NCBI RefSeq assembly: GCF_005886145.1 | Contig: NZ_CP040504.1 | Location: 2,356,001-2,420,000 of the forward strand | Direction of reading: 5' to 3' | DNA length: 64,000 nt | From: Neisseria sp. oral taxon 014 str. F0314 | GTDB lineage: Bacteria > Pseudomonadota > Gammaproteobacteria > Burkholderiales > Neisseriaceae | Part shown: one piece after another, positions 131 to 64,000 of the stretch | How the letters are laid out: each line of letters opens with the position of its first letter | How positions within the stretch are numbered: the first letter of the stretch is position 1 | The notes under the pieces: model-generated | The model's database searches: none | What the model saw: only the letters and a program-made list of their open reading frames with translations | Told to the model about the DNA's origin: nothing | Position numbers and translations under genes: made by a program

Positions 131-999
131 GGTCTGAATCCGAATAACCAGGTTTTCAAGGCAATGCGCTTTTTGCGCGGCGAGGGGATGGCGATTTTGT
201 AGGTCAGCACGTTTTCTGCGCCGTCGCGCTCGATTTCGTTGAGCAACGCATAGTAAATCGCCGCCATAATCAGGCCGACCTTTTGGGATTTCTTATCGGC
301 GGCGGGCAGCAGCGATACGGCCTGGCGGTAGGTTTCGCGGGCGCGGCCGATTTGAAACGCCATCAGCGCGGCAAATTCGGGCGTGGGTGCGGAGCGCATG
401 ACGACGGACGCGGGTACGCCGAAACGCTGCATGTCTTCCACCGGCAGGTAAATCCGGCCTTTGCGCGCGTCTTCGCCCACGTCGCGGATGATGTTGGTCA
501 GTTGCAGCGCCAGCCCCATTTTGTCGGCATACTCCAGCGTCTGCGGCTGCGTAAAGCCCAAAATCCGCGCAATCAGGCAGCCGACCACGCCGGCGGCGCG
601 GCGGCAGTAGAGTTTCAAATCGTCGAAACTGTTGTAGCGCGCCTGATCCAAGTCCATCTGCATCCCGTCGATTAATTCGCTGAATTCCCCGTGCGGCAGC
701 GCGAAGCTGTGCAATACGGTTTTCAATGCCTGATTGACAGGATGTTCGGGCATTTGTTCCGTAAATGCTTTGGCCAAATCGGCACGCCACCAGTTGAGCG
801 CGGCCTGCGCCACGGCGGGGTTGGAACTGTCGTCGGCCACGTCGTCCAGTTCGCGGCAGAAAACGTACAGCACGGTCATCGCTTCCCGCTGCGCCTGCGG
901 CAGGAAACGGAATCCCGAAAGGAAACTGGATTTGCTTTCCGCCGCTTTCAGGCGGCAATATTCGAGCGGTTGCACGGCGTGTCCTGGGTTGGGTTGCAA
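127..999 (-). CDS. hpnD: Presqualene diphosphate/hydroxysqualene synthase HpnD (squalene/phytoene synthase family)
   Basis: This 290-residue all-alpha trans-isoprenyl diphosphate synthase condenses two farnesyl diphosphates head to head. Both Asp-rich Mg-diphosphate motifs are visible: ELDDVADD near residues 50-57 and IRDVGEDARKGRIYLP near 171-186. Length fits the HpnC/HpnD family (about 270-300). The start is uncertain: the longest reading uses a TTG at 997-999, and an in-frame GTG lies eight codons later. It overlaps hpnE by 4 bases. No HpnC partner or hopanoid cyclase is visible, so whether squalene is the end product cannot be judged here. A phytoene synthase role is the alternative, but the HpnE-like neighbour favours squalene. 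Confidence 0.82.
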   Translation of the reverse strand: MQPNPGHAVQPLEYCRLKAAESKSSFLSGFRFLPQAQREAMTVLYVFCRELDDVADDSSNPAVAQAALNWWRADLAKAFTEQMPEHPVNQALKTVLHSFALPHGEFSELIDGMQMDLDQARYNSFDDLKLYCRRAAGVVGCLIARILGFTQPQTLEYADKMGLALQLTNIIRDVGEDARKGRIYLPVEDMQRFGVPASVVMRSAPTPEFAALMAFQIGRARETYRQAVSLLPAADKKSQKVGLIMAAIYYALLNEIERDGAENVLTYKIAIPSPRKKRIALKTWLFGFRP

Positions 1000-1051
1000 A
1001 AGCGGGGGATTTTATAGCGAATCGGGGCGGGCAACAAATTTTCAGACGGCC

Positions 1052-2383
1052 TCATGCGCCCGCCACGGTCATTTCGGCAATCAGTATCGAACCGATTTTG
1101 TTGGGCGAGCGGCGCAGGGCGTCGTCGGCGATGCCCGCAATGTTGAGGTACATGTCCTGCAGGCGGCCGGCGATGGTGATTTCGTGGACGGAATGGGCAA
1201 TGACGCCGTTTTCCACCCAGAATCCCGCCGCACCGCGCGAGTAGTCGCCGGTGATGGTGTTGACACCCTGTCCCATCAATTCCGTAACCAGCAGGCCCGT
1301 GCCCATTTCTTTGAGCAGGTCGGCTTGGGCGGCATGGGTGGGGGCCAGATAGAGGTTGTGCGGGCCGCCCGCGTTGCCGGTGGTTTGCATACCGAGCTTC
1401 CTCGCGCTGTAACTGCTGAGGAAGTAGCCTTCGACAATGCCGTTTTTGATGACGAAACGCGGATGCGTGGCGACGCCTTCCGAGTCGAACCAGCAGCTTC
1501 CGAAGGCGCGCGGAATATGCGGTTCTTCGCGCAGGTTGACGAAATCGGGCAGGATTTTCTTGCCGATGCTGTCCATCAGGAAACTGCTTTGGCGGTAGAG
1601 CGCGCCGCCGCTGAGCGCACCCGCCAGATGGCCGATCAAGCTGCCCGACATCGTCGTGTCGAACAAGACGGGATAGGTGCCGGTCGGAATACTGCGGCTG
1701 TCGAGGCGGCGCACGGTGCGCAGGGCGGCGGTGCGGCCGATTTGTTCGGGCGTTTCCAAATCTTGATGGCAGCAGGCGGAATCGTACCAGTAGTCGCGTT
1801 CCATGCCTTGTTCGTCGGCGGCGACCACGCTGCACGAAATGCCGTGGCGCGTACCCTGCTGGTGCGCCATAAAGCCGTGGGAATTGCCGTAGACGTATTG
1901 GTAATGTCCGGTCTGGACATCCGCCCCTTCGGAGTTTTCGATACGTTCGTCCGAATCCAGCGCCGCCTGTTCGCATTGCTTTGCCAATGCCGCCGCCTCT
2001 TCCGCACTCAAATCCCATTCGTGATAACGGTCGAGGTCAATCGGTTTGTCCGCCATCAGATCCGCGTCGGCCAAACCGGCGCAGTCGTCTTCGGCGGTAT
2101 AGCGCGCGATGTCGATGGCCGCCCTGACCGTATCGACCAGCGCCTTGTCCGAAAAGTCGGCGGTACTGGCGCGGCCCTTGCGACGACCGGCATAGACGGT
2201 GATGTCCAGCGATTTGTCCTGCTGGAACTCGATTTGTTCGATTTCGCCCAAGCGCACGCTCACGCTTTGACCGAGCGATTCGCTGAAATCGGCTTCCGCC
2301 GCCGTTGCGCCGTACTTCTTGGCAAGCGCGAGCGTGCGGCTGCATAAATCGGTCAGTTCGTCGGGGGTATGGTTGAACAGCAT
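1052..2383 (-). CDS. pmbA: TldE/PmbA family peptidase subunit
   Basis: This 443-residue protein matches PmbA/TldE from end to end. The family's conserved Gly-rich C-terminal half is present, with TGDYSRGAAGFWVENG around residues 372-387 and a final segment ending in IAEMTVAGA. TldD and TldE form a cytosolic protease that processes peptides such as microcin B17 and helps degrade CcdA. TldE lacks the HExxxH metal site of TldD, and none is seen here. The gene is transcribed divergently from darP, a common arrangement in beta- and gammaproteobacteria. A single DUS follows its stop codon near 1042. Confidence 0.93.
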   Translation of the reverse strand: MLFNHTPDELTDLCSRTLALAKKYGATAAEADFSESLGQSVSVRLGEIEQIEFQQDKSLDITVYAGRRKGRASTADFSDKALVDTVRAAIDIARYTAEDDCAGLADADLMADKPIDLDRYHEWDLSAEEAAALAKQCEQAALDSDERIENSEGADVQTGHYQYVYGNSHGFMAHQQGTRHGISCSVVAADEQGMERDYWYDSACCHQDLETPEQIGRTAALRTVRRLDSRSIPTGTYPVLFDTTMSGSLIGHLAGALSGGALYRQSSFLMDSIGKKILPDFVNLREEPHIPRAFGSCWFDSEGVATHPRFVIKNGIVEGYFLSSYSARKLGMQTTGNAGGPHNLYLAPTHAAQADLLKEMGTGLLVTELMGQGVNTITGDYSRGAAGFWVENGVIAHSVHEITIAGRLQDMYLNIAGIADDALRRSPNKIGSILIAEMTVAGA

Positions 2384-2495
2384 AACGGCATTTCCAAAGT
2401 ATTTTCCGCATTTTAACCGTTTTCAGACGGCCTCGGCAAAAATGTATTCCGCGCCGCAGCGGCGGGCGTCTCATGCTAGAATACGCGGATTGAAA

Positions 2496-3050
2496 ATGAC
2501 AGAATCCCCGCAAGCCATGTTTGAACAGGAAGAAGAATGGGTCAGCAAGACCCGTATGAAAAAGCAGATGAACGATTTGCAGGACTTGGGCATGGAGCTG
2601 ACCAAGCTCTCTCCCGACACCCTGAAGAAGATCGGTTTGGACGAGGAGCTGCTCGAAGCGGTGCTGGCCTATAAGAAAATCACTTCCAACGGCGCGCTCA
2701 AACGCCAAGGCCAGTTTATCGGCCGCCTGATGCGCGACACCGACCCCGCGCCGATTGAAGCGTTCCTTGCCAAACTGCGCGGCGACAATGCGGCGCACAA
2801 CGCCTTTCTGCAACGCATCGAACAGGCGCGCGACCGCCTGCTGGCGGACGACGGCGCGGTTACGCAATTCATGGCGGACTTCCCCCATGCCGACGCAGGC
2901 AAACTGCGTACCTTAATCCGCAACACGAAAAAAGAGCAGGAACAAAACAAACCGCCGAAAAACTTCCGCGCCCTGTTTCAAGAAATCAAGGCCGTGATGG
3001 AAGGCAGCGGGGCAGAAGGTGCGGACGGAGTACAGGATTGGGCAGAATAA
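2496..3050 (+). CDS. darP: Dual-action ribosomal maturation protein DarP (YjgA family)
   Basis: A 184-residue highly charged protein of the YjgA/DarP family, which binds precursor 50S particles and aids late assembly of the peptidyl transferase centre. The ATG at 2496 was chosen because the family homology begins there. An upstream in-frame extension runs through intergenic DUS sequence and antisense to pmbA, so it is not credible. The family hallmark KRQGQFIGRLMR lies near residues 70-81. The gene is divergent from pmbA, as in many proteobacteria. The AT-rich island starts just after its stop codon. Confidence 0.92.
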   Translation: MTESPQAMFEQEEEWVSKTRMKKQMNDLQDLGMELTKLSPDTLKKIGLDEELLEAVLAYKKITSNGALKRQGQFIGRLMRDTDPAPIEAFLAKLRGDNAAHNAFLQRIEQARDRLLADDGAVTQFMADFPHADAGKLRTLIRNTKKEQEQNKPPKNFRALFQEIKAVMEGSGAEGADGVQDWAE

Positions 3051-3167
3051 AGATTGGATAATTAGGGTGGGAGCCGTTTGAGAAAAGGTTTTGTCGGATG
3101 TAGGGTTTCAGACGGTCCTAAGTTTGTTCTGAATGATTTTATATGTAATCTTTTGCAAGAATTAAAT

Positions 3168-3605
3168 ATGCTATACAAAAAACTGCTATTGACATCTACC
3201 TTTATATTGTTTGTGTTTTCAGCCAGTTGTGAAGCAAACAGTCACGAAAAATATTCTGAAATTCAACAATCGACCTTAAAAGGGAAAAGAAACATGTCAA
3301 ACTTAAACTTAATGTTAAATGAAGTCTTTAAAATCCGTATTACAGACATTTCAAGTCAACGTGCAGATGTCAGCCATATCGTCTCAAAATATATTTGTTC
3401 AGGTACTTCCCGACACGAAATAAATAATATTATCTCTGACAAGTTTGATATTTTAGAGAATTCAAATAACAAATTGCTTATTCATTATAAAAAAGGTGAA
3501 GGTAATTTGGGTAATAGACGTGATTTGTATATCGGCTTATTCTTTGACAGAAATGGAAATTTATTGGGTAACACCTCCTACTTAGATAAAAGCAACAATT
3601 TATAA
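3168..3605 (+). CDS. Putative lipoprotein, first of a tandem paralogous pair
   Basis: The 145-residue product, read from the ATG at 3168, starts with a lipoprotein signal peptide whose lipobox FSASC ends around residue 21. The mature start EANSHEKYSE and the segment STLKGK recur almost unchanged in the next gene. The C-terminal part has HIVSKYICSGTSRHEI, matching VSYIVSKYLPIGSSKKEV of the neighbour, then alternating strands ending in FDRNGNLLG. The layout recalls small BamE-like folds, but that is inference. Base composition is far more AT-rich than darP or recJ. I do not recognise a characterised family; immunity, inhibitor or envelope roles are all possible. Confidence 0.75.
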   Translation: MLYKKLLLTSTFILFVFSASCEANSHEKYSEIQQSTLKGKRNMSNLNLMLNEVFKIRITDISSQRADVSHIVSKYICSGTSRHEINNIISDKFDILENSNNKLLIHYKKGEGNLGNRRDLYIGLFFDRNGNLLGNTSYLDKSNNL

Positions 3606-3656
3606 AATATTAGAAAGTTATTAATGGAAAAATAGAAGTCTATCAAAGGATTCATC

Positions 3657-4088
3657 ATGAAATTTATAAATTTAACGACATTATCACTTGTTCTATCGCT
3701 TATATGTTTATCAGCTTGCGAAGCAAGTAACCATGAAAAAAATTCTAAAACCCAGCTATCAACCTTGAAAGGAAAAAACAATATGCAACCCTCAAGCCCC
3801 ATGCTGAATGAAATTTTTGCCAGTGAAAAATACATCCGTCCCGGTCAGTCCAAAGATGTTAGTTATATTGTTTCCAAATATCTGCCGATTGGTTCTTCCA
3901 AAAAGGAAGTGATTGATAAATTGAACGAGATGAATCAACACTACAGCGATAAAGGACATATTATCTACGCAGGCTATGGCAAACAGATTCACCCGATGAT
4001 TCCTAATCCAGAGGTAATGATTGAATTAAAATTTAACGCTTCCGGTTATTTGGAAAATATCGACAGTCAATTCTATTATGCACAGTAA
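3657..4088 (+). CDS. Putative lipoprotein, second of a tandem paralogous pair
   Basis: This 143-residue protein has a clear lipoprotein signal peptide (LICLSAC, Cys at residue 21) and a good ribosome-binding site (AAAGGA before the ATG). It shares the mature N-terminus EASNHEKNSKTQ, STLKGK and the VSYIVSKYLPIGSS block with the gene 50 bases upstream, so the two look like a duplication followed by divergence. The C-terminal half predicts strands ending in FNASGYLENI. It is 16 bases upstream of the 290-residue gene and probably co-transcribed with it. Function is unknown; the pairing with that gene suggests a shared job. Confidence 0.78.
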   Translation: MKFINLTTLSLVLSLICLSACEASNHEKNSKTQLSTLKGKNNMQPSSPMLNEIFASEKYIRPGQSKDVSYIVSKYLPIGSSKKEVIDKLNEMNQHYSDKGHIIYAGYGKQIHPMIPNPEVMIELKFNASGYLENIDSQFYYAQ

Positions 4089-4104
4089 CAATTGGAGAAT
4101 ATAA

Positions 4105-4977
4105 ATGGCAAACGAAAAAATAGAAGTCGGCTATCGGCATATCGGTACATTTGCAAAGGTGGAATATCATCATAAGTTTTTGCTCTATACCGACAAAACG
4201 GGGCAGCGATACACCATTAGTGGGTGGACTGGAGAAGAAACATCCCCACAGTTGCCTTTGGGTAAAATACATATTGAAACCGGCTTGCCCAATCATATGG
4301 GGCTGCCATACGATGCCAATAATCCAGATAATTTCGATAATAGAAAAACTGCTTGGTATAAAAATGCAGATAAAGAACCCATCTCCCCACAAAAACAATA
4401 CCGTGAACTGATCGCCGAAGCTCCCGATTTATCCGTTAAATGGGCTGAAATGGTACGCAATGCCCAAAGTAAGGACAATATCTATCCTTACGATTACTTA
4501 CGGCAAAATTCCAATACCCTTGCCGATACCTTATTGCGCGAAGCAGGCTTTCCCGAACCTGAAAAAGACGGAATATTCCGGCATCTTGCCCCGGGTTCGG
4601 GAAATAGGCTGGATAGGAATCTCGTACCGCAACATCCTGACGATGCAGGCATTTCCGACCTGAAGGACTTGAGTTATCTTGAAGAAGAGAAATTCAAAGA
4701 AAATCCCCAATATGCCATGCAGACACAGTCAGAACCTGTTGAGAATCCCAAGCCCCAATCCAAATACGAAGAAACTATGGCTATGCTGCAAGGATTATTG
4801 AATGACACCGACGGTTCGTATGCAAAAAAACTTTTGGCCGATAATCCTGATAAAGTTGCCAGTTTCAACGAAAGAGTCCAACAGGCTTTAGAAGAAGAGC
4901 GGCAACAACAGCTTGCCGTCCAAGAAGAACAAAATATCCAGCAGGAGCAGCAGAGAGGTTTTTCGCGTTCTATCTAA
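4105..4977 (+). CDS. Uncharacterised 290-residue protein, possible papain-like fold with Gln-rich tail
   Basis: Starts at an ATG behind GGAGA. No signal peptide is visible. Two blocks stand out. The first, near residues 15-35, is VEYHHKFLLYTDKTGQRYTI, a His-containing beta segment. The second, near 133-150, is YDYLRQNSNTLADTLLREAG. The order His-strand then Asn-[Cys/Ser]-x helix resembles permuted NlpC/P60 (LRAT-like) hydrolases whose nucleophile sits in a helix; here a Ser would replace the Cys. That reading is inference. Residues after about 240 form a Glu/Gln-rich, probably coiled, tail. The gene is AT-rich and follows two lipoprotein genes, an order compatible with an effector/immunity-like module. 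It could equally be a degenerate phage or polymorphic-toxin domain. Confidence 0.7.
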   Translation: MANEKIEVGYRHIGTFAKVEYHHKFLLYTDKTGQRYTISGWTGEETSPQLPLGKIHIETGLPNHMGLPYDANNPDNFDNRKTAWYKNADKEPISPQKQYRELIAEAPDLSVKWAEMVRNAQSKDNIYPYDYLRQNSNTLADTLLREAGFPEPEKDGIFRHLAPGSGNRLDRNLVPQHPDDAGISDLKDLSYLEEEKFKENPQYAMQTQSEPVENPKPQSKYEETMAMLQGLLNDTDGSYAKKLLADNPDKVASFNERVQQALEEERQQQLAVQEEQNIQQEQQRGFSRSI

Positions 4978-5015
4978 AGCAGACATGAATCTGAAGTCTG
5001 TTTGTTGTGAAGAGC

Positions 5016-5043
5016 GGCCGTCTGAAAAGGTTTTCAGACGGCC
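5016..5043. terminator. DUS inverted-repeat hairpin
   Basis: GGCCGTCTGAAAA and its reverse complement are separated by 2 bases, giving a compact hairpin after the last island gene. It marks the right edge of the AT-rich island and may act as a terminator before recJ. Confidence 0.7.
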
Positions 5044-5100
5044 TTCCCCCTTTTACAATATCCCTTCCGAACACACCAAACCGCCCCCGATTTCCAAACC

Positions 5101-6801
5101 ATGCCCGTCAAAATCCAAACCCGCCCCGTCAACCAAAACGTCCTCGATGATTTGCTCACCGCCGGCGCCGATCCTTTAATCGCCCGCCTGTGCGCCTCGC
5201 GCGACGTGCAGAGTCCTGCCGAATTGGACGACAAACTCGCCGGCCTTCTGCCTTATCAATCGCTGACGAATTGCGAAGCCGCCGCCCGCCGTCTGGCGGA
5301 TGCCATCGAGCGCAAGGAAAAAATCCTGATTGTCGCCGACTACGATGCCGACGGCGCGACGGCGTGTTCCGTCGGCATGAGCGGTTTGGCGGCGATGGGC
5401 GCGGCGGTGGATTTCCTCGTACCCAACCGCTTCGAACACGGCTACGGTTTGACGCCCGAGCTTGCAGAAATCGCCGCCGCGCAAGGCGTGGATTTGCTGA
5501 TTACGGTCGATAACGGCATCGCCAGCATCGCAGGTGTGGCGCGGGCGCAGGAATTGGGTTTGGACGTGATCGTTACCGACCACCACCTGCCCGCCGAAAC
5601 CGTACCCGACTGCATCATCGTCAATCCGAACCAAAAAGGCTGCGGCTTCCCCAGCAAAAGTCTGGCGGGCGTAGGCGTGATTTTTTATGTGTTGATGGCG
5701 TTGCGTGCCGAATTGCGCCGCCGCGATTATTTTTCAGACGAGCTGAAGGAGCCGAATCTGGGCGAACTTTTGGATTTGGTCGCACTCGGCACCGTCGCCG
5801 ATGTCGTCCCCCTCGACCATAACAACCGTATCCTCGTGTCGCAAGGTTTGAAAAGGATGCGTTCCGGCAAAATGCGTCCCGGCATCCGCGCCTTGTTTGA
5901 AGTGGCGCGGCGCGACTGGCGCAAAGCGCAGCCTTTCGATATGGGTTTCGCACTGGGTCCGCGCATCAATGCCGCCGGACGGCTGGACGATATGTCGGTC
6001 GGCATTACCTGCCTGTTGGCGCGCGACGACGCAGAAGCGCAGGCATTGGCGGCGCAGTTGAACGACCTCAATATCGAACGCCGCGAAATCGAGCAGTCCA
6101 TGCTGCAAGATGCGCTGAACGCCTTTCCCGAAACCCTGCCTTCAGGTCAGACGACCCTGGTCGCCTACCGCGACGACTTTCATCAAGGCGTGGTCGGCAT
6201 CGTCGCCAGCCGCCTCAAAGACCGCTTCTACCGCCCGACCATCGTGTTCGCCCCGGCGGACAACGGCGAAGTGCGCGGTTCGGGGCGTTCCATTCCTAAC
6301 CTGCACCTGCGCGACGCTTTGGATTTGGTGTCCAAACGCCATCCCGATTTGATTTTGAAATTCGGCGGACACGCGATGGCGGCGGGCTTGAGCATACTCG
6401 AACACAACATTCCCGCGTTTCAGACGGCCTTTGAAGAAGCCGTGCGCGAAATGGTGTGCGAAGACGATTTGTCGCAAACCTTCATCACCGACGGAAGCCT
6501 GAAAGCCTGCGACATCACGTTGGAACAGGCGCAAAACCTTGCTCGCCATGTTTGGGGACAAGGCTTCGCGCCGCCGAGCTTTACCGACGAGTTTCACGTC
6601 ATCCGCCAACAGCCTTTAGGCGCGGAAGGCAAACACAAAAAAGTCTGGCTGCAAAAAGACGGCTACGAATTTGAAGCCATGTTCTGGCGGTGCAGCGAAG
6701 ACATCCCCGAATACATCCGCACGGTTTACCGCCCCGTGGCAAACGAGTGGCGCAATCAGATGGAATTGCAGCTTTATATCGATTATTGGGAAGCGGCGTA
6801 A
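5101..6801 (+). CDS. recJ: Single-stranded-DNA-specific 5'-3' exonuclease RecJ
   Basis: The 566-residue protein carries the DHH phosphoesterase motifs of RecJ: VADYDADGATA near residues 78-87, TVDNGI near 135-140, and the defining DHH at 160-162. Further C-terminal is the DHHA1 segment with GRSIPNLHLRDAL and GGHAMAAGLS. RecJ degrades single-stranded DNA 5' to 3' in RecF-pathway recombination and mismatch repair, and contributes to recombination during neisserial antigenic variation. Length is normal for the family. An in-frame DUS encodes FQTAFEEA in the C-terminal half. Confidence 0.97.
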   Translation: MPVKIQTRPVNQNVLDDLLTAGADPLIARLCASRDVQSPAELDDKLAGLLPYQSLTNCEAAARRLADAIERKEKILIVADYDADGATACSVGMSGLAAMGAAVDFLVPNRFEHGYGLTPELAEIAAAQGVDLLITVDNGIASIAGVARAQELGLDVIVTDHHLPAETVPDCIIVNPNQKGCGFPSKSLAGVGVIFYVLMALRAELRRRDYFSDELKEPNLGELLDLVALGTVADVVPLDHNNRILVSQGLKRMRSGKMRPGIRALFEVARRDWRKAQPFDMGFALGPRINAAGRLDDMSVGITCLLARDDAEAQALAAQLNDLNIERREIEQSMLQDALNAFPETLPSGQTTLVAYRDDFHQGVVGIVASRLKDRFYRPTIVFAPADNGEVRGSGRSIPNLHLRDALDLVSKRHPDLILKFGGHAMAAGLSILEHNIPAFQTAFEEAVREMVCEDDLSQTFITDGSLKACDITLEQAQNLARHVWGQGFAPPSFTDEFHVIRQQPLGAEGKHKKVWLQKDGYEFEAMFWRCSEDIPEYIRTVYRPVANEWRNQMELQLYIDYWEAA

Positions 6802-7275
6802 ACGGCAAAAGGCCGTCTGAAAAACCAAATCCCTTATTCCTTTCCCCGTCCGCCGCTGCGGTCGGTAACTGTTGCCGCCACATCGGACAGAAATCGTCCG
6901 ATATTTAGGGCCTCCCCGTGCTGGTTTCGGAGCTGTATTACGCGCATTGCAGAAATGCGCTGACGCCGTTAGGGATTCATTTTTGGGTCAGGAAGTAGGC
7001 AAACTGTATGCTAAAGGCCGTCTGAAACATTTTCAGACGGCCTTTTATACAAGAAACGTAAACCCCGTTGTCCTGTTTTGCAGGATTTTGTACCAAGTAC
7101 CGCCTTTCTTTAAGACGAAAGTACGGGAGGTAACGGCGGATAACAAACGGACGGCAGTTTTAGTGAAGATTGTCTGCGTGTTGACACATGTTTACGCGTG
7201 TGCGGCTAAGATAACGGCCAGCAACCGGACGAGGTTGCGTGTATCTGTTTTGAAACTTAAGAAAGAGAGTTCGAA
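6802..7275. other. 474-base gene-poor stretch between recJ and the repeat protein gene
   Basis: It holds a single DUS after recJ, a DUS hairpin at 7013-7046, and a leader before the next gene. A possible promoter has TTGACA at about 7182-7187 with a TAAGAT 20 bases on, which is longer than ideal spacing. A 135-codon open frame crosses the region, but it reads through the DUS hairpin and looks fortuitous. No other gene is seen. Confidence 0.6.
7013..7046. terminator. DUS inverted-repeat hairpin ending in a T-run
   Basis: AAAGGCCGTCTGAAA pairs with TTTCAGACGGCCTTT around a 3-base loop and is followed by a T, giving a plausible Rho-independent terminator downstream of recJ. Confidence 0.7.
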
Positions 7276-7671
7276 ATGAAAAAACTGATTGCTGCCGCCC
7301 TGTTGCTGGCGACTTCTGCCACATTGATGGCAGCTCCCCGGCTCAATGACACGATGCGCGAGAAACAATACCGCCACGACGAGGCGCTGCGTGAAAAACA
7401 AGACCGGTATGATGAGGCGCTGCGCCGCAAAAGCGAGCAATACAGGGGAGACGACCCCCGCCGCTACGATGACATGTTGGATGAAAAAAGCGACCGCTAC
7501 TATGACGCTTTGAAAGAACGCCAGCGCAAATACGATGAAGCGTTGGAAAGAAAGCAGCGCGAATATAACGAAGCCCGCGATCGCCGTATTGATGAAGCCC
7601 GTCGGGCGCGCGAACGCCGTATCGACGATGCCCGCCGCCGTTCGGACGAGCGCCGTTACCGCAGGTTTTAA
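7276..7671 (+). CDS. Periplasmic, highly charged repeat protein of unknown function
   Basis: The 131-residue product begins with a Sec signal peptide (MKKLIAAALLLATSATLMA, likely cleaved after the AMAA-type site). Nearly everything after it is Arg, Glu, Asp, Lys and Tyr in imperfect 11- to 14-residue repeats around the phrase (R/K)YDEAL followed by (R/E)(K/R)(K/Q). The tail switches to RRIDEARRARERRIDDARRR. This predicts a long single charged alpha helix or coiled coil in the periplasm. The ribosome-binding site is AAGAAAGAG. I do not recognise a named family. Roles in envelope spacing or binding acidic polymers are only guesses. Confidence 0.8.
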   Translation: MKKLIAAALLLATSATLMAAPRLNDTMREKQYRHDEALREKQDRYDEALRRKSEQYRGDDPRRYDDMLDEKSDRYYDALKERQRKYDEALERKQREYNEARDRRIDEARRARERRIDDARRRSDERRYRRF

Positions 7672-7700
7672 AAAACGGTTCGGGTAAACCGGATGACGGC

Positions 7701-7714
7701 GGAACGTACGTTCC
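7701..7714. repeat. Perfect 14-base palindrome
   Basis: GGAACGTACGTTCC reads the same on both strands. It lies between the repeat protein gene and the DUS hairpin that precedes ppsR's 3' end. It may be a protein-binding site or the foot of a terminator. Confidence 0.5.
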
Positions 7715-7722
7715 GTTTGGCC

Positions 7723-7755
7723 GAGGCCGTCTGAAAATGATTTTCAGACGGCCTC
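7723..7755. terminator. DUS hairpin between convergent genes
   Basis: GAGGCCGTCTGAAAA pairs with TTTTCAGACGGCCTC around a 3-base loop. The position between the convergent ends of the repeat protein gene and ppsR suggests a bidirectional terminator. Confidence 0.75.
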
Positions 7756-55832: not shown

Positions 55833-56132
55833 GTCTTCATTATTTCATAGAACACGGTATGAGCCAAGTTGATTGTAAAAATTAATAAATGCAATAAATA
55901 AAATTATAAATCAAGTATTGACTATTTGAACCGGTTAAAAATTTTAAGCGTATGAAATATATAAAAAATAAAATCCGTTAAGATTTTGTAATCAATATGC
56001 TGTCGTCAAAACGGATTTTACGGTTTGATTTAAGTCATTATATTTTGTGTGTTTAATCAATAAAATAGTCGGATTAATACAAAATATTGATTGATGGGCG
56101 ACGGTATTCCGTCGCCGGACAAGGAACACGAA
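55833..56132. promoter_or_regulatory. AT-rich control region upstream of ubiU
   Basis: This 300-base AT-rich stretch between divergent genes carries an FNR-like site and a -10 for ubiU; see the separate entries. No coding signal is convincing. Confidence 0.6.
56025..56038 (+). promoter_or_regulatory. FNR-type activator site for ubiUVT
   Basis: TTGATTTAAGTCAT matches the FNR site TTGAT-N4-ATCAA with two differences in the right half. Its centre is 32 bases upstream of the centre of a TAAAAT at 56061-56066, which is the spacing of a class II FNR promoter (-41.5). Confidence 0.65.
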
Positions 56133-57140
56133 ATGCGGAAAATTCCCGAATTGGTTTGTCCCGCCGGCAACCTGCCCGCTCTGAAAACGGCGGTGGACAA
56201 CGGTGCGGACACGGTATACATGGGGCTGAAAGACGCGACCAATGCGCGTAACTTCCCCGGTTTGAATTTCGACATGAAGTCGGCGCGGGAGGGCGTGGCC
56301 TACGCCCATGCGCGCGGACGCAATGTGCTGATGGCGATTAATACGTTCGCACAGGCCGGACAGGTGGCGCGCTGGTATGCCGCGGTGGATACGGCGGCAG
56401 AGCTTGGCGCAGATGCGGTGATTGTCGCCGACCCCGCCGTTATGGCCTATGTGGCGGAACGGTATCCGAACCTGAGGCTGCACATGTCGGTGCAGGGATC
56501 GGCCACCAATTACGAGGCCATCAATATGATGAAGGAGCTGTTCGGCGTCCGCCGCGCCGTGTTGCCGCGCGTCTTGACCGTGGATCAGGTCAAACACGTT
56601 ATCGACCATACCGATGTGGAAATCGAAGTGTTCGGTTTCGGCAGTTTGTGCGTCATGGTGGAAGGGCGCTGCATTTTGTCGAGTTATGCGACGGGTGAAT
56701 CGCCGAATATGCAGGGTGTGTGTTCACCGGCGAAGGCGGTGCGCTGGGAGCAGTTGCCCGACCGCATGAACGTGCGGCTGAACCAGGTGTTAATCGACCA
56801 GTATAAACCGGACGAACCGGCTGGCTATCCGACCCTGTGCAAAGGCCGTTTCGAGGTGAACGACGAAACCTATTACGCGCTGGAAGAACCGACCAGCCTG
56901 AATGTTTTGGAAATGTTGCCCGAACTCATCAAAATCGGCGTTTCCGCCATCAAAATAGAAGGCCGCCAGCGCAGCCCGATGTACACGGCGCAAGTAACCA
57001 AATCGCTGCGTCAGGCCTTGGATGCGGCCGCTGCCGATCCGGCGCATTTCAAAGTCAATCCGGTGTGGAACAACGCGCTGAGCAAGGTTTCGGAAGGGCA
57101 TCAGACGACCTTGGGCGCATACAGCCGTCCGTGGAAATAA
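56133..57140 (+). CDS. ubiU: Ubiquinone biosynthesis protein UbiU (U32 family)
   Basis: A 335-residue U32 protein, one half of the UbiU-UbiV complex that performs oxygen-independent hydroxylation in ubiquinone synthesis. It opens MRKIPELVCPAGNLPALKTA, and the start at 56133 follows AAGGA. The U32 signature VEIEVFGFGSLCVMVEGRC and later Cys in QGVCSPAK and TLCKGRF provide the four [4Fe-4S] ligands. Its neighbours ubiV and ubiT complete the pathway module. An FNR-like site upstream fits use in oxygen limitation. Confidence 0.95.
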   Translation: MRKIPELVCPAGNLPALKTAVDNGADTVYMGLKDATNARNFPGLNFDMKSAREGVAYAHARGRNVLMAINTFAQAGQVARWYAAVDTAAELGADAVIVADPAVMAYVAERYPNLRLHMSVQGSATNYEAINMMKELFGVRRAVLPRVLTVDQVKHVIDHTDVEIEVFGFGSLCVMVEGRCILSSYATGESPNMQGVCSPAKAVRWEQLPDRMNVRLNQVLIDQYKPDEPAGYPTLCKGRFEVNDETYYALEEPTSLNVLEMLPELIKIGVSAIKIEGRQRSPMYTAQVTKSLRQALDAAAADPAHFKVNPVWNNALSKVSEGHQTTLGAYSRPWK

Positions 57141-57152
57141 GGGGGAGGGAAA

Positions 57153-58070
57153 ATGAATCCGATGAAACTATCATTGGGGCCGGTTTTGTTTTTCTGGCAG
57201 AAGGAAGCCCTGCTGGAATTTTACGCCGCCATGCTGGATGCGCCGGTGGATACCATTTATCTGGGCGAAGTGGTGTGTTCGCGCCGCCAGAAAATGCGTT
57301 TTGCCGACTGGGTCAGCCTGGCGGAAGATTTGGCGGAAAGCGGCAAGGAAATTATTTTGTCGTCGCAGGTGCTGCTGGAAAGCGAATCCGATTTGAAACG
57401 CCTGCGCAAAATCACGGGGCAGGACAAATTCAAAGTCGAAGCCAACGACATGGGCGCGGTCAAATTGGCGCGCGAACACGGCATTCCGTTTGTCGCCGGC
57501 GCCAGCCTAAACATTTACAACGAAAGCACGCTGGCGCTGTTCCAGAAACTGGGCGCATACCGCTGGATTGCACCGTCCGAGTTGAGTCGCGACAAAGTTG
57601 CCGAAATCATCAAGGTTTCAGACGACATCGAAACGGAATTGTTTGCTTGGGGAAAAATGCCTTTGGCGTACTCTTCACGCTGCTTTACCGCGCGGCATTA
57701 CAACCTGAACAAAGACGGCTGCGAATTCCGCTGCTTGGATTACGAGCAAGGTATGGACATGAATACCCGCGAGGGCAAACCGTTTTTAACCATCAACGGC
57801 ATTCAAACTATGTCTTACGGCTGCCAAAACCTGCTGCCGCACCATGAGGATTTGCGGCAAATCAGCGTGAACATGCTGCGCCTGTCGCCGCAGATGCACG
57901 GCATGGCCGAAATCATCCGCCTGCACCGCGACGTGTTGGACGGCAAAGCCGCATGGGCGGACGTACGGCCCGAATTGGAGAAACTGGCCGCCGGCACGCT
58001 GGTTGACGGCTATTGGCGCGGACAGCCCGGTATCGAAGCCGTAAAGGAGGAATATTATGGCGCTGCCTGA
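57153..58070 (+). CDS. ubiV: Ubiquinone biosynthesis protein UbiV (U32 family)
   Basis: A 305-residue U32-family partner of Ubi[12 protein letters not shown] near residues 5-15 and [21 protein letters not shown] are family features. Cys in SRC, DGC, FRC and YGC near residues 176-232 would bind a [4Fe-4S] cluster. It begins 13 bases after ubiU, with GGGGGAGGG as ribosome-binding site, and overlaps ubiT by 14 bases. Together they hydroxylate ubiquinone precursors without oxygen. Confidence 0.95.
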
Positions 58071-58497
58071 AATCGTACTGCCGAAATGGATGGGCAGAAT
58101 CGGCGCGAAACTGCCCGGCAAACCGCCGCGTTTCATACTGGTGTCGGCGTTGAACGCCATGTTGAAAAAAGGGCTGCTGCCTGCCGATATGGAACTTTTC
58201 GCCGGAAGGAGGTTCGAAATTGAAGTACTGGATGCGGGTATCACAGTCCGTTTCAGTGCCGACAACCAAAAATTTACCGACGATAATTTCAACGGCACGC
58301 CCGATTTGCGGCTTGCCGCCAACGGCATCGACTTCATGCGCATGATGATGCGCGAAGAAGACCCCGACACCTTGTTTTTCAACCGCAAGCTGCAAATCGA
58401 AGGCGATACCGAGCTGGGCCTGATAACCAAAAACCTGCTCGACAGCGTCGATTGGCCGTTTGGAGGCTGGTTTCTGAACAAGGGAGCTTCTTCTTAG
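58057..58497 (+). CDS. ubiT: Ubiquinone biosynthesis accessory factor UbiT (SCP2 domain)
   Basis: A 146-residue SCP2-type lipid-binding protein needed for the UbiU/UbiV pathway. An N-terminal amphipathic region ([20 protein letters not shown]) precedes the sterol-carrier-like fold, with [16 protein letters not shown] and [16 protein letters not shown]. It ends in a fairly conserved tail, WPFGGWFL. The 14-base overlap with ubiV shows translational coupling. Confidence 0.94.
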
Positions 58498-59565: not shown

Positions 59566-61032
59566 TTAAAAACGGTATCTCAAATTCAGTGCGATTTCAT
59601 TCTGTCGGTAAACATAAAAATCCGAATTGCTGCGGCTGACCGTCCGCTTGAATCTTAATTCGGGAGAGATGTATTTAAACTGCCATTTCGATGCGCCCAA
59701 AGCGGTGGTAAAAATGGTCTGCCTGTCGCGGCGGCGTTTGCCGTCGGTGTGGTAGCTGCCTTCGTCGTAGCGGCTGAGGCGGTGAAGGGCGGCGGCGTTG
59801 AGATAGATACCGTTGCCGAAAATTTTATAGCCGCCGATGCGGGCGGTGTATTCCCTGCTGCGGGCAAACGCGTCGGGATACTTGCGGCGGGTGAGGTCGA
59901 TGCCGCCGAACAGGCCGAGGCCGTCTGAAAACGTGTAGCCCAATCCTGCGCCGGAAGTATAAAGGCTGTAGTCGCTGTAATATCCGCGCTCGCTTTCCAG
60001 ATATTTGACCCGTTTGCCTTCCAGTCGGGCGTTGACCGACCATTTTCGCCCCAGATTCCGTTCCCAGTTCATATCCGCGCCCCATGCGCGGTAACGGCTG
60101 CGGCCGCCGCGAAAGTAATGTTCGAAATACGGGGTCAGCGTCAGGTCATCGTCGGCATCGGCGTATTGGTAGCCGGCGGACAGCAGGGCGGTGTTTTCAC
60201 TGTATTTTTCAATCGGTTCGCTTTGGGTGTCGGCGCGGTCAAATCGGCTGCCGTAGGCAATCGGGCGCAGGATGAGGTTGTGATGGCCCTTGAGCGGAAC
60301 GGATTTCGAGGCGGCGGCGCTGTATTGCCAAAACGCCGAGCCGACGGGCTTGGGCAGGGAGCGGTAGCTGAAACATTCGCCCATCAATTCGCCCACGCAT
60401 TCGCGTTTGCCGTTGCCTTGATTGATGTTGTCGCTGTAACCGCGCCCGACGGAAATGTCGCCGTGCCAGCGGCTGCGTTTATCGAGGATGTCGAGATAGT
60501 TTTGCACCGTCTCTTTGGTTTCAGACGGCATCCCGCCTTGCAAAACCTTTTCGAAACCGGCTTTTGCTTCGCGGGTCTGATTGTCTTCACCGTAAAGCCG
60601 TGCCAGTTCCAACCCTATGCGGACATCGTCGGGCGCAGCCTGTTGCGCCGCTTTCATCTTTTCCAGCGCGCCGGAAACATCGCCCTGCGAACGCGCCAGC
60701 AACCCCTCGGCCATCAGCACCAGATGCGGTTTGTGGCCGGAAAGGGTGCGGTAGTGCGTCAGAAATTCCCTCACTTTGTTCCACTGCCTGTCGTTGACCG
60801 CGTAATAAATGCCCAAGGCCAAATCGTGTTCCGTGTGCGGCACATGATAAGTCTCGCCGCCGATGTTAATGCGGCTTTCATCTGAAAGGCCGTCTGAAAA
60901 TGCTTCCGCTTCCTGATACTGCCTGATTTGACGCTGAACCCCGTCGCGCAGCATACGCGTGTCGTCATCGTCGGCAAAGGCGGGGATGGAAAGGGGGAGC
61001 AGCAGGGCAAACAGGCAGGCGCGGTTTTTCAT
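59566..61032 (-). CDS. Slam (surface lipoprotein assembly modulator, DUF560) outer-membrane translocon
   Basis: A 488-residue outer-membrane protein. After a signal peptide (cut near FADDDD) comes a TPR-like region (residues about 60-195, LALGIYYAVNDRQWNKV ... PDDVRIGLELARLYGEDNQ), then the DUF560 beta barrel (about 200-488) of alternating strands ending in RYRF, with a terminal Phe. Slam proteins export surface lipoproteins and soluble hemophilins across the outer membrane (type XI secretion). The gene lies downstream of a non-lipidated hemophilin-like gene, so this is most likely its translocon. Two DUS encode AFSDGLSDES and FSDGLGLFGG. Confidence 0.92.
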   Translation of the reverse strand: MKNRACLFALLLPLSIPAFADDDDTRMLRDGVQRQIRQYQEAEAFSDGLSDESRINIGGETYHVPHTEHDLALGIYYAVNDRQWNKVREFLTHYRTLSGHKPHLVLMAEGLLARSQGDVSGALEKMKAAQQAAPDDVRIGLELARLYGEDNQTREAKAGFEKVLQGGMPSETKETVQNYLDILDKRSRWHGDISVGRGYSDNINQGNGKRECVGELMGECFSYRSLPKPVGSAFWQYSAAASKSVPLKGHHNLILRPIAYGSRFDRADTQSEPIEKYSENTALLSAGYQYADADDDLTLTPYFEHYFRGGRSRYRAWGADMNWERNLGRKWSVNARLEGKRVKYLESERGYYSDYSLYTSGAGLGYTFSDGLGLFGGIDLTRRKYPDAFARSREYTARIGGYKIFGNGIYLNAAALHRLSRYDEGSYHTDGKRRRDRQTIFTTALGASKWQFKYISPELRFKRTVSRSNSDFYVYRQNEIALNLRYRF

Positions 61033-61051
61033 TTCGGGTTTCCACAATATA

Positions 61052-61082
61052 GGGGAAGCCGAATCACATCATCGGCTTCCCC
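61052..61082. repeat. Hairpin between the secreted protein gene and the Slam gene
   Basis: GGGGAAGCCGA pairs perfectly with TCGGCTTCCCC around a 9-base loop. It lacks a T-run, so it is not a classic terminator; it may lower Slam expression relative to the upstream cargo or protect the transcript. Confidence 0.7.
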
Positions 61083-61132
61083 ATCCTTAAAATCCATCGG
61101 CAATCCTTTTGAATACATGCTTTCAGACGGCC

Positions 61133-62053
61133 TCAACGCTTGCGTCCGCCGAATGCCACGTCGTCTGCCGCACCTGCTTTACGGGTGGCGATACCCGCCA
61201 TTGCCGCCGCGCCCTTGCCGTAGAATTGCCCTTTCATACCTTGGGCGGTATCGGCAAACGTGCCTTTGGTGTTGTCGATTTTCGCTTTATCGAAGCTGAT
61301 TCTGTCCGCACCGCGCGCAATCTGGCCGCCCATTGTTCCTTGAGTTGTCGTACCGAATTTTGCCGTAACCGTGCCGCGGTAGAAATCGTTTGCGCCGGGC
61401 GTGTGTTTGTTGATGCCGACCACATCGTAGGTTGCCGTTGCCAAGCCTTGAGTCCGTCCGGTCGGATTGTCGCCGGCATACCATACCGTGCGGCGGGCGT
61501 CGGCCATGTTCAGGTTGGTGCTGTTTTGAACAGGCGTACCCGATGCGCGCGGCGCCCATTCGCCGAAATAAACCCCGCTATTGTCGGGCAGGTTTTTGAC
61601 TTGGCCGATGACCAGGCCGCCGAATTTCGGCGCGATGGGCAGTTTGACGTCGGTAATCTGGCGCACGGAATAAACATCCACATTCGCCGCGCGTTTTTCA
61701 TACCAGACTTGGCCCAATGTCGGATTGGTAAAGAACGAAATGACGGGATTGACGTCTTTCACTGTCAGATAAGTCGGATTGGCCAAACCGTTTGCCGTGC
61801 CGTTGATATTGGCTCCGTTAATCGGCCTGTTGCCGTATTTTTTGTTGATGTGTTTGACGGGGCCGTCGCCGATGTTGATACGGATGGAACTGTTGTTGAT
61901 TCTCAAAGCCGCTTTGCCTGCGCCAAACGGTATGGCGGTGGAAGGCTGCCTCGTATCGATGGTGTTGTAGTTGGAAGATTCGCCTGTCGGAGCGGCGGAG
62001 ACGGTTGCAGATGCGGCCAGTGCCAAAGCTGCGGCCAATAATTTCAGTTTCAT
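61133..62053 (-). CDS. Slam-dependent secreted hemophilin-like protein
   Basis: A 306-residue exported protein with a Sec signal peptide (LAAALALAASATVSA, cleaved before AP) and no lipobox Cys, so it should be soluble. The second half has strands and the C-terminal block GQFYGKGAAAMAGIATRKAG then FGGRKR, matching the TbpB/HphA-type C-terminal barrel (FYG-AxxxAG...FGG-R) used by Slam cargo. The N-terminal half would be the ligand-binding part; haem or haemoglobin is likely by analogy with HphA but unproven. ATG 62053 follows AAAGGTG. Neighbours are a Slam gene and a TonB receptor. Confidence 0.87.
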   Translation of the reverse strand: MKLKLLAAALALAASATVSAAPTGESSNYNTIDTRQPSTAIPFGAGKAALRINNSSIRINIGDGPVKHINKKYGNRPINGANINGTANGLANPTYLTVKDVNPVISFFTNPTLGQVWYEKRAANVDVYSVRQITDVKLPIAPKFGGLVIGQVKNLPDNSGVYFGEWAPRASGTPVQNSTNLNMADARRTVWYAGDNPTGRTQGLATATYDVVGINKHTPGANDFYRGTVTAKFGTTTQGTMGGQIARGADRISFDKAKIDNTKGTFADTAQGMKGQFYGKGAAAMAGIATRKAGAADDVAFGGRKR

Positions 62054-62235
62054 GGCTATCACCTTTTAGATTAAAGAATACGCCGTTTGCGGAACAGCGC
62101 AGCCGTTTTGCGTTTCAGCGCAAAATGTTGCGGCGGGGAGCGTTCGTTCGGGTTTGGGCTACCCGTCGTTATTCTTTGTAAGGCAGTGGCATGGAAACAG
62201 TGTTTGCAAATATTTTTGTAAATTTTATCTTTTCT

Positions 62236-62260
62236 AATTATGAAAATGAATATTAATACC
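62236..62260 (-). promoter_or_regulatory. Possible Fur box
   Basis: On either strand this reads as an array of (G/A)ATWAT-like hexamers related to the Fur consensus GATAATGATAATCATTATC. Match is partial; position upstream of a haem/iron-type cluster supports it. Confidence 0.45.
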
Positions 62261-62413
62261 GTTTGTATATATAATCAACCGTTAATCAGTGGATGTTGTG
62301 TCTGGTTTTGTAAAATCTTAAAGAAAATAACTTATGGCAGAACCGGATAGAAATATCCATTTGAATTCACTAGAGCTAAACCACTTATATCAATACAGCT
62401 TGTTTATTAACCT

Positions 62414-62523
62414 CGTCATTCCCGCGCAGGCGGGAACCCAGCCCCATACGCACGGAAAGTTATCGGATAAAACGGTTTCTTCAATTCCACGTTCTGGATT
62501 TCCGCCTGCGCGGGAATGACGGT
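62414..62523. repeat. NIME-type unit bounded by inverted dRS3 elements
   Basis: Two 20-base elements in inverted orientation flank about 60 bases: ATTCCCGCGCAGGCGGGAAC at 62418-62437 and ATTTCCGCCTGCGCGGGAAT at 62498-62517. Each follows the dRS3 pattern ATTCCC-N8-GGGAAT with one mismatch. The outer sequence CGTCATTCCCGC and GCGGGAATGACG is inverted too. It resembles neisserial intergenic mosaic elements. Confidence 0.85.
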
Positions 62524-62575
62524 TGATAAGTAGGTAGCAGGTGTTGTATCGATGTAAGTGGCTTAGCTATACAAA

Positions 62576-62604
62576 AGGCCGTCTGAAAAAATTTCAGACG
62601 GCCT
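62576..62604. terminator. DUS hairpin after the TonB receptor gene
   Basis: AGGCCGTCTGAAA pairs with TTTCAGACGGCCT around a 3-base loop, at the 3' end of the minus-strand receptor gene. Confidence 0.75.
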
Positions 62605-62620
62605 CTCAAACTTTGCCCCG

Positions 62621-64000
62621 TCAGAATTTGCCTGTAAACCCGACGGTAACCGCCCGTCCCGGTGCGGGGATGGGAACGTTGGACATCGGGTCGAGATAAT
62701 AGCGGTTGGTCAGGTTGCTGATGCTGAAGTTCATGCTCAGGTTTTTGCCGAAGTTGTAACGTCCGTAAGCATCCAATACCAAGGCGGAACGCCAGTGGTA
62801 GGGTCTGCCCGATGCCTGCATAATCCGCGCCAAGCCCTGACGCGCCAGTTTGTCCTGCTGGTCGGTATCGACGGTGCTGTGGTAGATGCCGCGCATACCC
62901 AGTTCCAGTCTGTTGTTGAAGCGGCGGGTGCCGACATCGAGGTTGAGCGAGTATTTCGGCTGCATGGTCTGATAGAAGCGGGTGGCGCCGAAGCCGCCGT
63001 CGATACATTCGGGAATGCGGTTGTTATAGACGTCGTAGTTGAAGGCGGTCGATTTGTCGCAGGTGCGCTGCTTTAAGCGGTAGTTCGCGCCGAACGAGGC
63101 AAACCATTTGCCGCTGTCGATACGGCTTTGCAGCTCGATGCCGCTGGTCTGTTTCTTGTCGTATTGGGTCAGGTTTTTGTTTTCGGTAATGTCGATGGCG
63201 TTTTTGATGGTGTTGTTGTAGTAGGTCAGGCGGATGTTGCCGTGTTTCAGCCGTTGCCAGTAGGGGGCAAAATTGAAGGAATAGCCTGCCTCCCAGTTGG
63301 TGCTGCGTTCGGGCTTCAGGTTGAATTCGGTATTGTAGGCTTCCAGCAGGTTGACGTTGGTGGTGGTTGCTTCGTAAATGCTGGGGAAGCGGGTTGCCTG
63401 CGCGAAACGGGCGAACAGGCGGCTGTTGTCGGTCAAATCGTAGCTGACAGCGATGACGGGCGACCATGCGCCGGCTTTCAGGTGTTTGGGCATGGGCCAT
63501 ACTTCGTCTTCGTTGGCGGGTTTTTTATAGAGGCGGTGGCCGCCGGTGCTGCCCATCGCAGTCGCCCGCTCTTTTTTTTGCAGATAGGGTGTTTTAACAT
63601 CATCTATTGCAGCATTGGTTAAATATTTGAAATAGCTGCCTTGCAATCCCTGCGGATTGTTTACTTTTTCGTTAAATTGCCCTTGTGCGAAAACCGGCCC
63701 TTGATATTTGCCGTCGATATAGGGTGTATAGACTTCTTTCTGCCGGTAAACGGCTTCATCGTGGTTGAAGGACGGGTTATCTACCTGTGGATTGTCGCCG
63801 TTTGCGTTGGCATAGATGACTTCGCCGGTCTGCCTTTCTCCGTTAATCGAATATCCTTTATCGTTATAGTCATAACCGTATTTGTTGCGGAATTCGTTTA
63901 TCAGACGATTTGACTCGTCAACATCTTCTGTTCTCAGGATTTTCCGCACATCGTCCGCTTCTTCTTTATTTGCAATCAGTTCGTAATAGGGGATATAGCT
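62621..64000 (-). CDS. TonB-dependent receptor, C-terminal part (5' end outside window)
   Basis: The 459 codons present run open to the right edge of the window, so the signal peptide, TonB box and plug are missing. Beta-barrel strands are clear (FARFAQATRFPSIYEATTTN, LKPERSTNWEAGYSFNF, KQTSGIELQSRID) and the protein ends in TVGFTGKF with a terminal Phe. Two Cys (RTCDKS and PECIDG) may form an extracellular disulphide. FARFAQATRFPSIYEA is the kind of block common in haem/haemoglobin receptors. With a Slam and a hemophilin-like gene next door it is a candidate hemophore receptor like HphR. Confidence 0.88.
   Translation of the reverse strand, partial: SYIPYYELIANKEEADDVRKILRTEDVDESNRLINEFRNKYGYDYNDKGYSINGERQTGEVIYANANGDNPQVDNPSFNHDEAVYRQKEVYTPYIDGKYQGPVFAQGQFNEKVNNPQGLQGSYFKYLTNAAIDDVKTPYLQKKERATAMGSTGGHRLYKKPANEDEVWPMPKHLKAGAWSPVIAVSYDLTDNSRLFARFAQATRFPSIYEATTTNVNLLEAYNTEFNLKPERSTNWEAGYSFNFAPYWQRLKHGNIRLTYYNNTIKNAIDITENKNLTQYDKKQTSGIELQSRIDSGKWFASFGANYRLKQRTCDKSTAFNYDVYNNRIPECIDGGFGATRFYQTMQPKYSLNLDVGTRRFNNRLELGMRGIYHSTVDTDQQDKLARQGLARIMQASGRPYHWRSALVLDAYGRYNFGKNLSMNFSISNLTNRYYLDPMSNVPIPAPGRAVTVGFTGKF

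Follow-up and report, generated by a model that had tools for sequence, protein, structure and literature searches.

A receptor, cargo and Slam trio of Neisseria with relatives beside nitric-oxide and denitrification genes and without the haem-holding residues of HphA

What is carried by a TonB-dependent receptor, an exported protein and a Slam translocon that lie in a row on the minus strand of a Neisseria genome, and under which conditions is it needed? The question is raised by the last part of a window of 64,000 nucleotides from Neisseria sp. oral taxon 014 str. F0314 (contig NZ_CP040504.1; C1:2356001-2420000 of the complete 2.50-Mb genome). The recurrence of receptor, cargo and Slam across loci is more than chance. 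Many relatives of this trio lie beside nitric-oxide (NO) and denitrification genes and lack residues with which a known scavenger holds haem. Work on the hemophilins of the type XI secretion system (T11SS) treats them as tools by which animal-associated bacteria obtain host iron. For the trio we favour, with about as much belief as doubt, a secrete-bind-import system that supplies a cofactor under NO or denitrifying conditions, with haem or a related metallo-tetrapyrrole as the likeliest ligand. Gene identities, the fold prediction, conservation, linkage and the box shared by the relatives were computed here.

The three genes and their relatives

The features of the locus are the following.

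59566..61032, minus strand: Slam, the T11SS outer-membrane translocon; 488 aa, with signal peptide, TPR domain and SlipAM barrel
61133..62053, minus strand: cargo; 306 aa, Sec-exported and non-lipidated; predicted hemophilin fold, handle at about 20-145 and C-terminal barrel at about 146-306
62414..62521, no strand: inverted repeat whose 28-nt arms are 93% complementary; it lies between the receptor and cargo genes, which are 567 bp apart, and resembles a neisserial dRS3/NIME-type element
62621..64000, minus strand: TonB-dependent receptor, C-terminal 459 aa (PF00593, 87.2 bits), cut by the window edge

A preliminary description had named the three genes as receptor, exported cargo and DUF560 Slam, and domain and profile matches identify all three as such. 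The Slam exceeds the cut-offs of PF04575 (109.7 bits against 22) and of the Slam TPR family PF24575 (55.8 bits against 35.2), and thus contains the DUF560/SlipAM barrel with N-terminal TPR domain that marks T11SS members. The complete receptor gene encodes 1,105 aa (C1:2418621-2421938) with Plug and barrel domains, and reaches the equivalent of position 65938, past the window end. Among solved chains it matches only HasR and PhuR at E 1e-5. The haem-receptor model TIGR01785 gives 216.9 bits, below its cut-off of 316.85, yet is the best among the NCBIfam models listed. A copper receptor was considered and rejected: there is no TIGR01778 match at E 0.1, and the identity to a copper-type receptor is 29.5% over 61 residues.

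The N-terminus of the cargo is signal-peptide-like. Against the NCBIfam model slam_lipo (NF041636) the cargo scores 104.9 bits, over the cut-off of 80. The lipobox pattern [LVI][ASTVI][GAS]C is absent from the first 35 residues of all 62 aligned and all 120 database sequences (137 distinct), and a GTG start 9 bases upstream would add three residues and no Cys. A lipoprotein is thereby ruled out, the family label being misleading here, and the earlier view of a Sec-exported protein without lipobox withstands the correction of the start. The fold prediction, in which folds outside the match lists are not thereby excluded, gives the N-terminal handle and the C-terminal Slam-type barrel that define the hemophilin family, both of which had been anticipated. 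The window cargo has no Pfam match at E 0.01, neither to HphA_N or HphA_C nor to any further domain hidden in the handle; among the 62 members of set A2, 11 match HphA_N and 10 HphA_C.

The parallel drawn earlier to HphR-HphA-HsmA of Acinetobacter baumannii (PMC8560813) stands for the three-gene architecture and the predicted fold. The two systems differ in sequence: the Neisseria-type profile aligns with the hemophilins over the barrel alone, the mixed, mostly Pseudomonas-type profile aligns over the whole length with 25% identity, and the window cargo has no counterparts of HphA H43 and H106. HrpA-HrpB-HrpC of Xenorhabdus nematophila, a TXISS-1B system likened here by description and not by sequence, also has a soluble cargo beside a TonB haem receptor (PMC8406197). 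A soluble-cargo Slam system had been thought notable in itself, a point that falls away: soluble cargos are already described in number, with 912 in haemophilin-like group 1 (PMC12282271), and NGO0554 of N. gonorrhoeae is called an hrpC homologue (PMC8406197).

A cargo search of named genomes, in which close relatives of the window genome may be missing, yielded 17 loci. They belong to Alcaligenaceae, Comamonadaceae, Pseudomonadaceae, Marinobacter, Neptuniibacter, Thauera and an unclassified gammaproteobacterium. The identity to the window cargo is 54-56% in Alcaligenaceae and 34-40% in Pseudomonas, Halopseudomonas, Marinobacter, Neptuniibacter, Comamonas and Thauera. In all 15 loci whose sequence extends far enough to either side, the trio is complete (the left flank is missing in L011, the right one in L023). 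A Neisseriaceae sample of 83 genomes contained 12 with a cargo match, 10 of them with a full-length cargo; the 10 full-length loci all hold the complete trio, with the receptor on the other strand in L039. When three later loci are included, a TonB receptor accompanies the full-length cargo in 29/29 loci with a visible side (16 from named genomes, 10 from Neisseriaceae). Cargo profile A3, run across the whole class at E 1e-40, found only the window genome among 370.

In a tree of 33 Slams, a 100/100 branch separates 22 trio Slams and two variant ones from nine others. The clade splits into two halves, one of Pseudomonas/Comamonas and one of Neisseria/Alcaligenaceae, with the variants nested inside the second, and it stands apart from the canonical hemophilin Slams of Neisseriaceae. 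The variants belong to L047 and L048 which, like L046, hold a 402-457-aa frame that shares only the cargo barrel, beside a Slam and without a receptor.

The ABC-NnrS neighbourhood and its boxes

NnrS is a heme- and copper-containing membrane protein of NO stress. Genes for a periplasmic binding protein (SBP) and an ABC permease adjoin the trio in 11 of the 17 named-genome loci, together with ATPase and NnrS genes in 10 (the contig of L015 ends), and a Crp/Fnr-family gene adjoins it in 8/17. This ABC-NnrS operon lies behind the Slam on the opposite strand in L009, L010, L017 and L018, in front of the receptor in L008, L012 and L021, and after the Slam on the same strand in L013, L014, L015 and L022. 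Halopseudomonas pelagia, a non-pathogenic denitrifier, is one carrier of the full set. Three Pseudomonadaceae loci came to light only once the pattern was known; in these the linkage occurs in L112 and L113, not in L114. It is seen in both halves of the trio Slam clade, L008 and L037 falling in the Neisseria/Alcaligenaceae half, and SBP or NnrS neighbours occur in 0/7 canonical hemophilin loci.

The Neisseria genome G042 has trio and operon, seven genes in total, in a single row, with a sensor kinase and a response regulator after them. In G005 and G006 the Slam is followed by a 149-aa gene without known family and then by a sensor/regulator pair nearest to NarQ/NarX and NarL, below cut-offs. 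The window genome has its own SBP-ABC-NnrS set (L082) at about C1:2439933-2446163, with two other open reading frames (ORFs) between the members, one of them of the CadD family. This partner operon lies outside the window, hence it was no part of the preliminary description.

Where the operon of Neisseriaceae lies apart from the trio, a TonB-copper-type receptor stands directly upstream of the SBP gene in 8 of 12 loci examined (missing at G000, G015, G012 and G028; SBP gene present in 10 of the 12). Two of these receptors were scanned and gave 138 and 185 bits with TIGR01778, their best model, below the cut-off of 472. A PCuAC copper chaperone gene lies beside L013. Since receptors of copper type and of haem type both accompany the ABC-NnrS operon, they may bring the two cofactors of NnrS, or what the trio carries may be copper-related.

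A second NnrS (NnrS-2) was counted by eye in 10/10 cargo genomes of the genus (8 full-length, 2 variant only) versus 21/46 overall, broken in G016 and G023; the association (Fisher 8.7e-5, or 7.8e-4 for the 8/8 full-length genomes only) ignores kinship. NnrS is present in 16/16 genomes of the named set and NosZ in 13/16, L011 being left out. In Pseudomonadaceae, NosZ occurs in 7/10 genomes with cargo versus 95/288 without (p 0.035), in a sample that includes genomes found beforehand: seven of the 10 cargo matches were taken as loci already found (G537 being L011 by coordinates) and three were new.

The linked loci share an operator. The FNR/DNR box is given as TTGATnnnnATCAA, and Neisseria are described as having no DNR and using NsrR (PMC1274295). 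The pattern TTGAYNNNNRTCAA was sought at 16 named-genome loci (L011 left out). If one mismatch is allowed, it lies 10-230 bp ahead of the receptor ORF at all 11 that have the ABC operon and at none of the other five; the TTGAY-N4-RTCAA palindrome is thus present within one mismatch at 11/16. Where the SBP operon has a start of its own, a box is no more than about 160 bp away from the tblastn match in 9/9 cases (L008, where it is shared, L009, L010, L012, L017, L018, L021, L112 and L113); in the four remaining ABC loci the SBP operon comes after the Slam. The Crp/Fnr gene, too, has the box in front of it in L017, L018 and L112, but not in L009, L010 and L113. The regulator adjacent to L009 carries the helix TPETFSR, presumably an FNR-type motif, and has no clear N-terminal FNR cysteine cluster. 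L019 and L023, without box, have FecR-type genes in front, and L019 also an extracytoplasmic-function (ECF) sigma gene. The strict FNR box TTGATNNNNATCAA is found exactly upstream of 3/26 receptors, where 0.04 would be expected; when one mismatch is allowed, the figures are 6/26 and 0.51 (200 resamplings; first-order Markov, as for the Fur and NsrR boxes).

The ligand and the competing explanations

HphA coordinates haem through H43 and H106 (PMC8560813). With the conserved GQV strand in register (7re4 alignment), H106 falls on Ala141 of the window cargo. In the comparison with Hpl of Haemophilus haemolyticus (6om5) and the 8glo, 8gmm and 8gm3 hemophilins, the Hpl His falls on the same Ala141 in that register, or on Phe144, invariant in 62/62, in the HMMER alignment; neither column has a His in any of the 62 rows. 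Throughout columns 136-147 a His appears only at column 143 in two rows (P0021, P0023). H43 falls near column 41, which is Leu, Ile or Val in 45 of the 47 Neisseria-type rows. In the Pseudomonas type, the His of column 40 is kept in 15/15 rows, but L113 and L114, found later, lack it. Across both subtypes the handle has no metal site of conserved His, Met or Cys, and the cargo has neither a copper motif nor a Cys.

An additional helix, at about 67-78, is present in Neisseria-type cargos, and 43/47 of their rows carry Tyr or His at position 73 within it. Tyr or His stands at 68 or 73 in 118/118 database relatives with the motif (120 in total, two truncated without it), the window cargo has His68 and Tyr73, and row P0029 has Tyr68/His73. 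The Tyr or His at 68/73 is the candidate replacement ligand of the Neisseria type. The H106 position also varies among canonical hemophilins of the same bacterial family, where one L066 protein and L067 have Tyr or lack a His, because of which the missing axial His lowers the likelihood of haem and does not exclude it.

In the secrete-bind-import system that we favour, Sec and Slam would place the unlipidated cargo outside the cell, by family resemblance to what others showed for HphA/HsmA and HrpC/HrpB. There the handle, set on the Slam-recognised barrel, would hold a small ligand. Subsequently, the loaded cargo would dock on its dedicated 1,105-aa TonB receptor and the ligand would pass to the periplasm. 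This ligand would be haem or a related metallo-tetrapyrrole, bound without the second histidine of HphA. Since a distinct T11SS clade is repeatedly packed with SBP, permease, ATPase and NnrS under an FNR/DNR-type box, cofactor supply for NO or denitrifying conditions is the most likely role.

Several observations weigh against this system. G042 is the only one of the 10 full-length Neisseriaceae trio loci with an adjacent ABC-NnrS operon, and in the window genome 18 kb separate the set from the start of the receptor gene and 22 kb from the cargo. The window locus does not have the palindrome; its best FNR/DNR site upstream of the receptor has 3 mismatches, no NsrR site is found, and no convincing Fur box either (11/19 upstream of the receptor; 14/19 upstream of the cargo, the latter without chance estimate). 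L016 and L020, without the ABC operon, carry the palindrome ATGACAATTGTCAT with 2 mismatches, and the cut-off therefore makes the 11-to-0 split look sharper than it is. An FNR box with one mismatch also precedes one of six canonical hemophilin receptors, that of L072. Finally, the axial His of HphA is absent, with no His at the H106-aligned column in 62 rows and none in columns 36-46, the H43 region, in 47 Neisseria-type rows.

The plainest alternative is a neisserial HphR-HphA-HsmA that takes haem from host haemoproteins as a source of iron, its NnrS neighbours being incidental. Architecture and fold are identical in kind, haem-receptor models fit the receptor best, HphA_N is matched by the 11 relatives mentioned above, and Fur-like boxes (15-16/19) lie upstream of the receptor in L037, L040, L041, L042 and L044. 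Against these points stand the absent axial His residues and the neighbourhood, which is that of most non-Neisseriaceae trios and of none of the seven canonical hemophilin loci; besides, the non-Neisseriaceae relatives presumably are mostly not obvious blood dwellers. We regard this explanation as rather unlikely, and give the same low weight to a cargo that carries a copper complex, another metal chelate or a planar organic molecule for the linked ABC importer and NnrS. Such a ligand would suit a handle without conserved metal site, the copper-type receptors upstream of the trio-free operons, the PCuAC gene and the naming of NnrS as a cuproprotein (PMC6769254). On the other hand, the two copper-type receptors scanned fall well below the TIGR01778 cut-off, the trio receptor is of haem type, and the cargo is devoid of copper motif and Cys.

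The linkage itself could be hitch-hiking, in which trio and ABC-NnrS operon share denitrification islands and keep separate functions. The frequency of NosZ indicates that such islands are common in trio genomes, and in Neisseria the operon is also found apart from the trio. The linkage nevertheless persists across three or more gene orders with one type of operator, returns in two of the three later loci and is present in both halves of the Slam clade, which makes this account somewhat less probable than either of the preceding two. An adhesin or decoy, secreted or retained at the surface and without nutrient role, is very improbable: known T11SS cargos include adhesins (PMC12282271), and L046-L048 have a barrel-sharing protein and Slam without receptor, but the TonB receptor accompanies every full-length cargo with a visible side.

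A bolder form of the favoured cofactor supply, which we consider doubtful, makes the trio, instead of a host-haem hemophore, the outer-membrane arm of a seven-gene system (trio, SBP, permease, ATPase and NnrS) under NO/FNR-type control. Its ligand would then be something other than His-coordinated haem, such as a copper complex or an unknown metallo-tetrapyrrole required by NnrS or by enzymes of denitrification. If true, the poorly understood NnrS would gain a substrate route and, to our knowledge, the cargo would be the first of a T11SS tied to nitrogen-oxide respiration. NnrS, a CRP/FNR-type regulator and the box TTGAT-N4-ATCAA are found among the relatives of the trio as in the described NnrS/DNR regulon, and the parts available of its reports name no T11SS or hemophilin (PMC1274295, PMC9409073, PMC6769254). 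No title linking T11SS with NnrS was found among the papers searched; the text available of PMC10256816 has NnrS and no Slam, T11SS or DUF560, and the main text of two T11SS surveys contains neither 'NnrS' nor 'denitrif', while their supplementary tables may differ. A hemophilin clade that environmental denitrifiers as well as Neisseria carry beside an ABC importer, NnrS and an FNR/DNR-type box would bring T11SS into nitrogen-oxide metabolism. The clade would also offer a handle on NnrS function, and natural hemophilin-fold proteins without the usual axial histidines from which to learn the ligands of the fold.

Other hemophilin-type loci, exchanged genes and neighbouring units

The window genome has 83 DNA uptake sequence (DUS) words, 74 of them AG-DUS, which is consistent with Neisseria. 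Of its five PF04575 matches, three Slams, the window's included, adjoin hemophilin-like cargos without visible lipobox. The other two such loci are L067, with one cargo (1406 kb), and L066 (C1:2297000-2308500), where one Slam and one 1,059-aa receptor accompany two tandem cargos (3882-5776) with His at the H106 position in one and Tyr in its neighbour. At L072 (G037, 919-3836) a canonical hemophilin cluster directly adjoins a gene for the beta-subunit of respiratory nitrate reductase (PF14711). Of nine Neisseriaceae receptor regions, one contains an NsrR-like site, that of L039 (G012); with 2 mismatches and p ~0.01 by resampling, it is no more than nine tries can give.

Two loci carry traces of exchanged genes. 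The Slam of L045 (G027) is followed downstream by 659 bp (7094-7752) that match the 3' end of the window receptor gene with 95.5% identity. The receptor before the cargo is there only 62% identical to that of the window, the Slam 98% and the cargo 78%, which suggests receptor and cargo allele exchange with a left-over cassette. In L113 (G586) the Slam, Crp, NnrS and ABC genes are 64-83% identical to those of other Pseudomonas loci, the receptor 38% and the cargo 45%; judging from these identities, the binder-receptor pair seems to have been replaced inside a conserved cluster.

On the plus strand of the window, at 56091-58497, two U32-peptidase-family genes and an SCP2 gene lie adjacent to each other, presumably ubiU-ubiV-ubiT of oxygen-independent ubiquinone synthesis. 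An FNR-like box, TTGATTTAAGTCAT, stands at 56025, upstream of ubiU, and is part of a unit separate from the trio.

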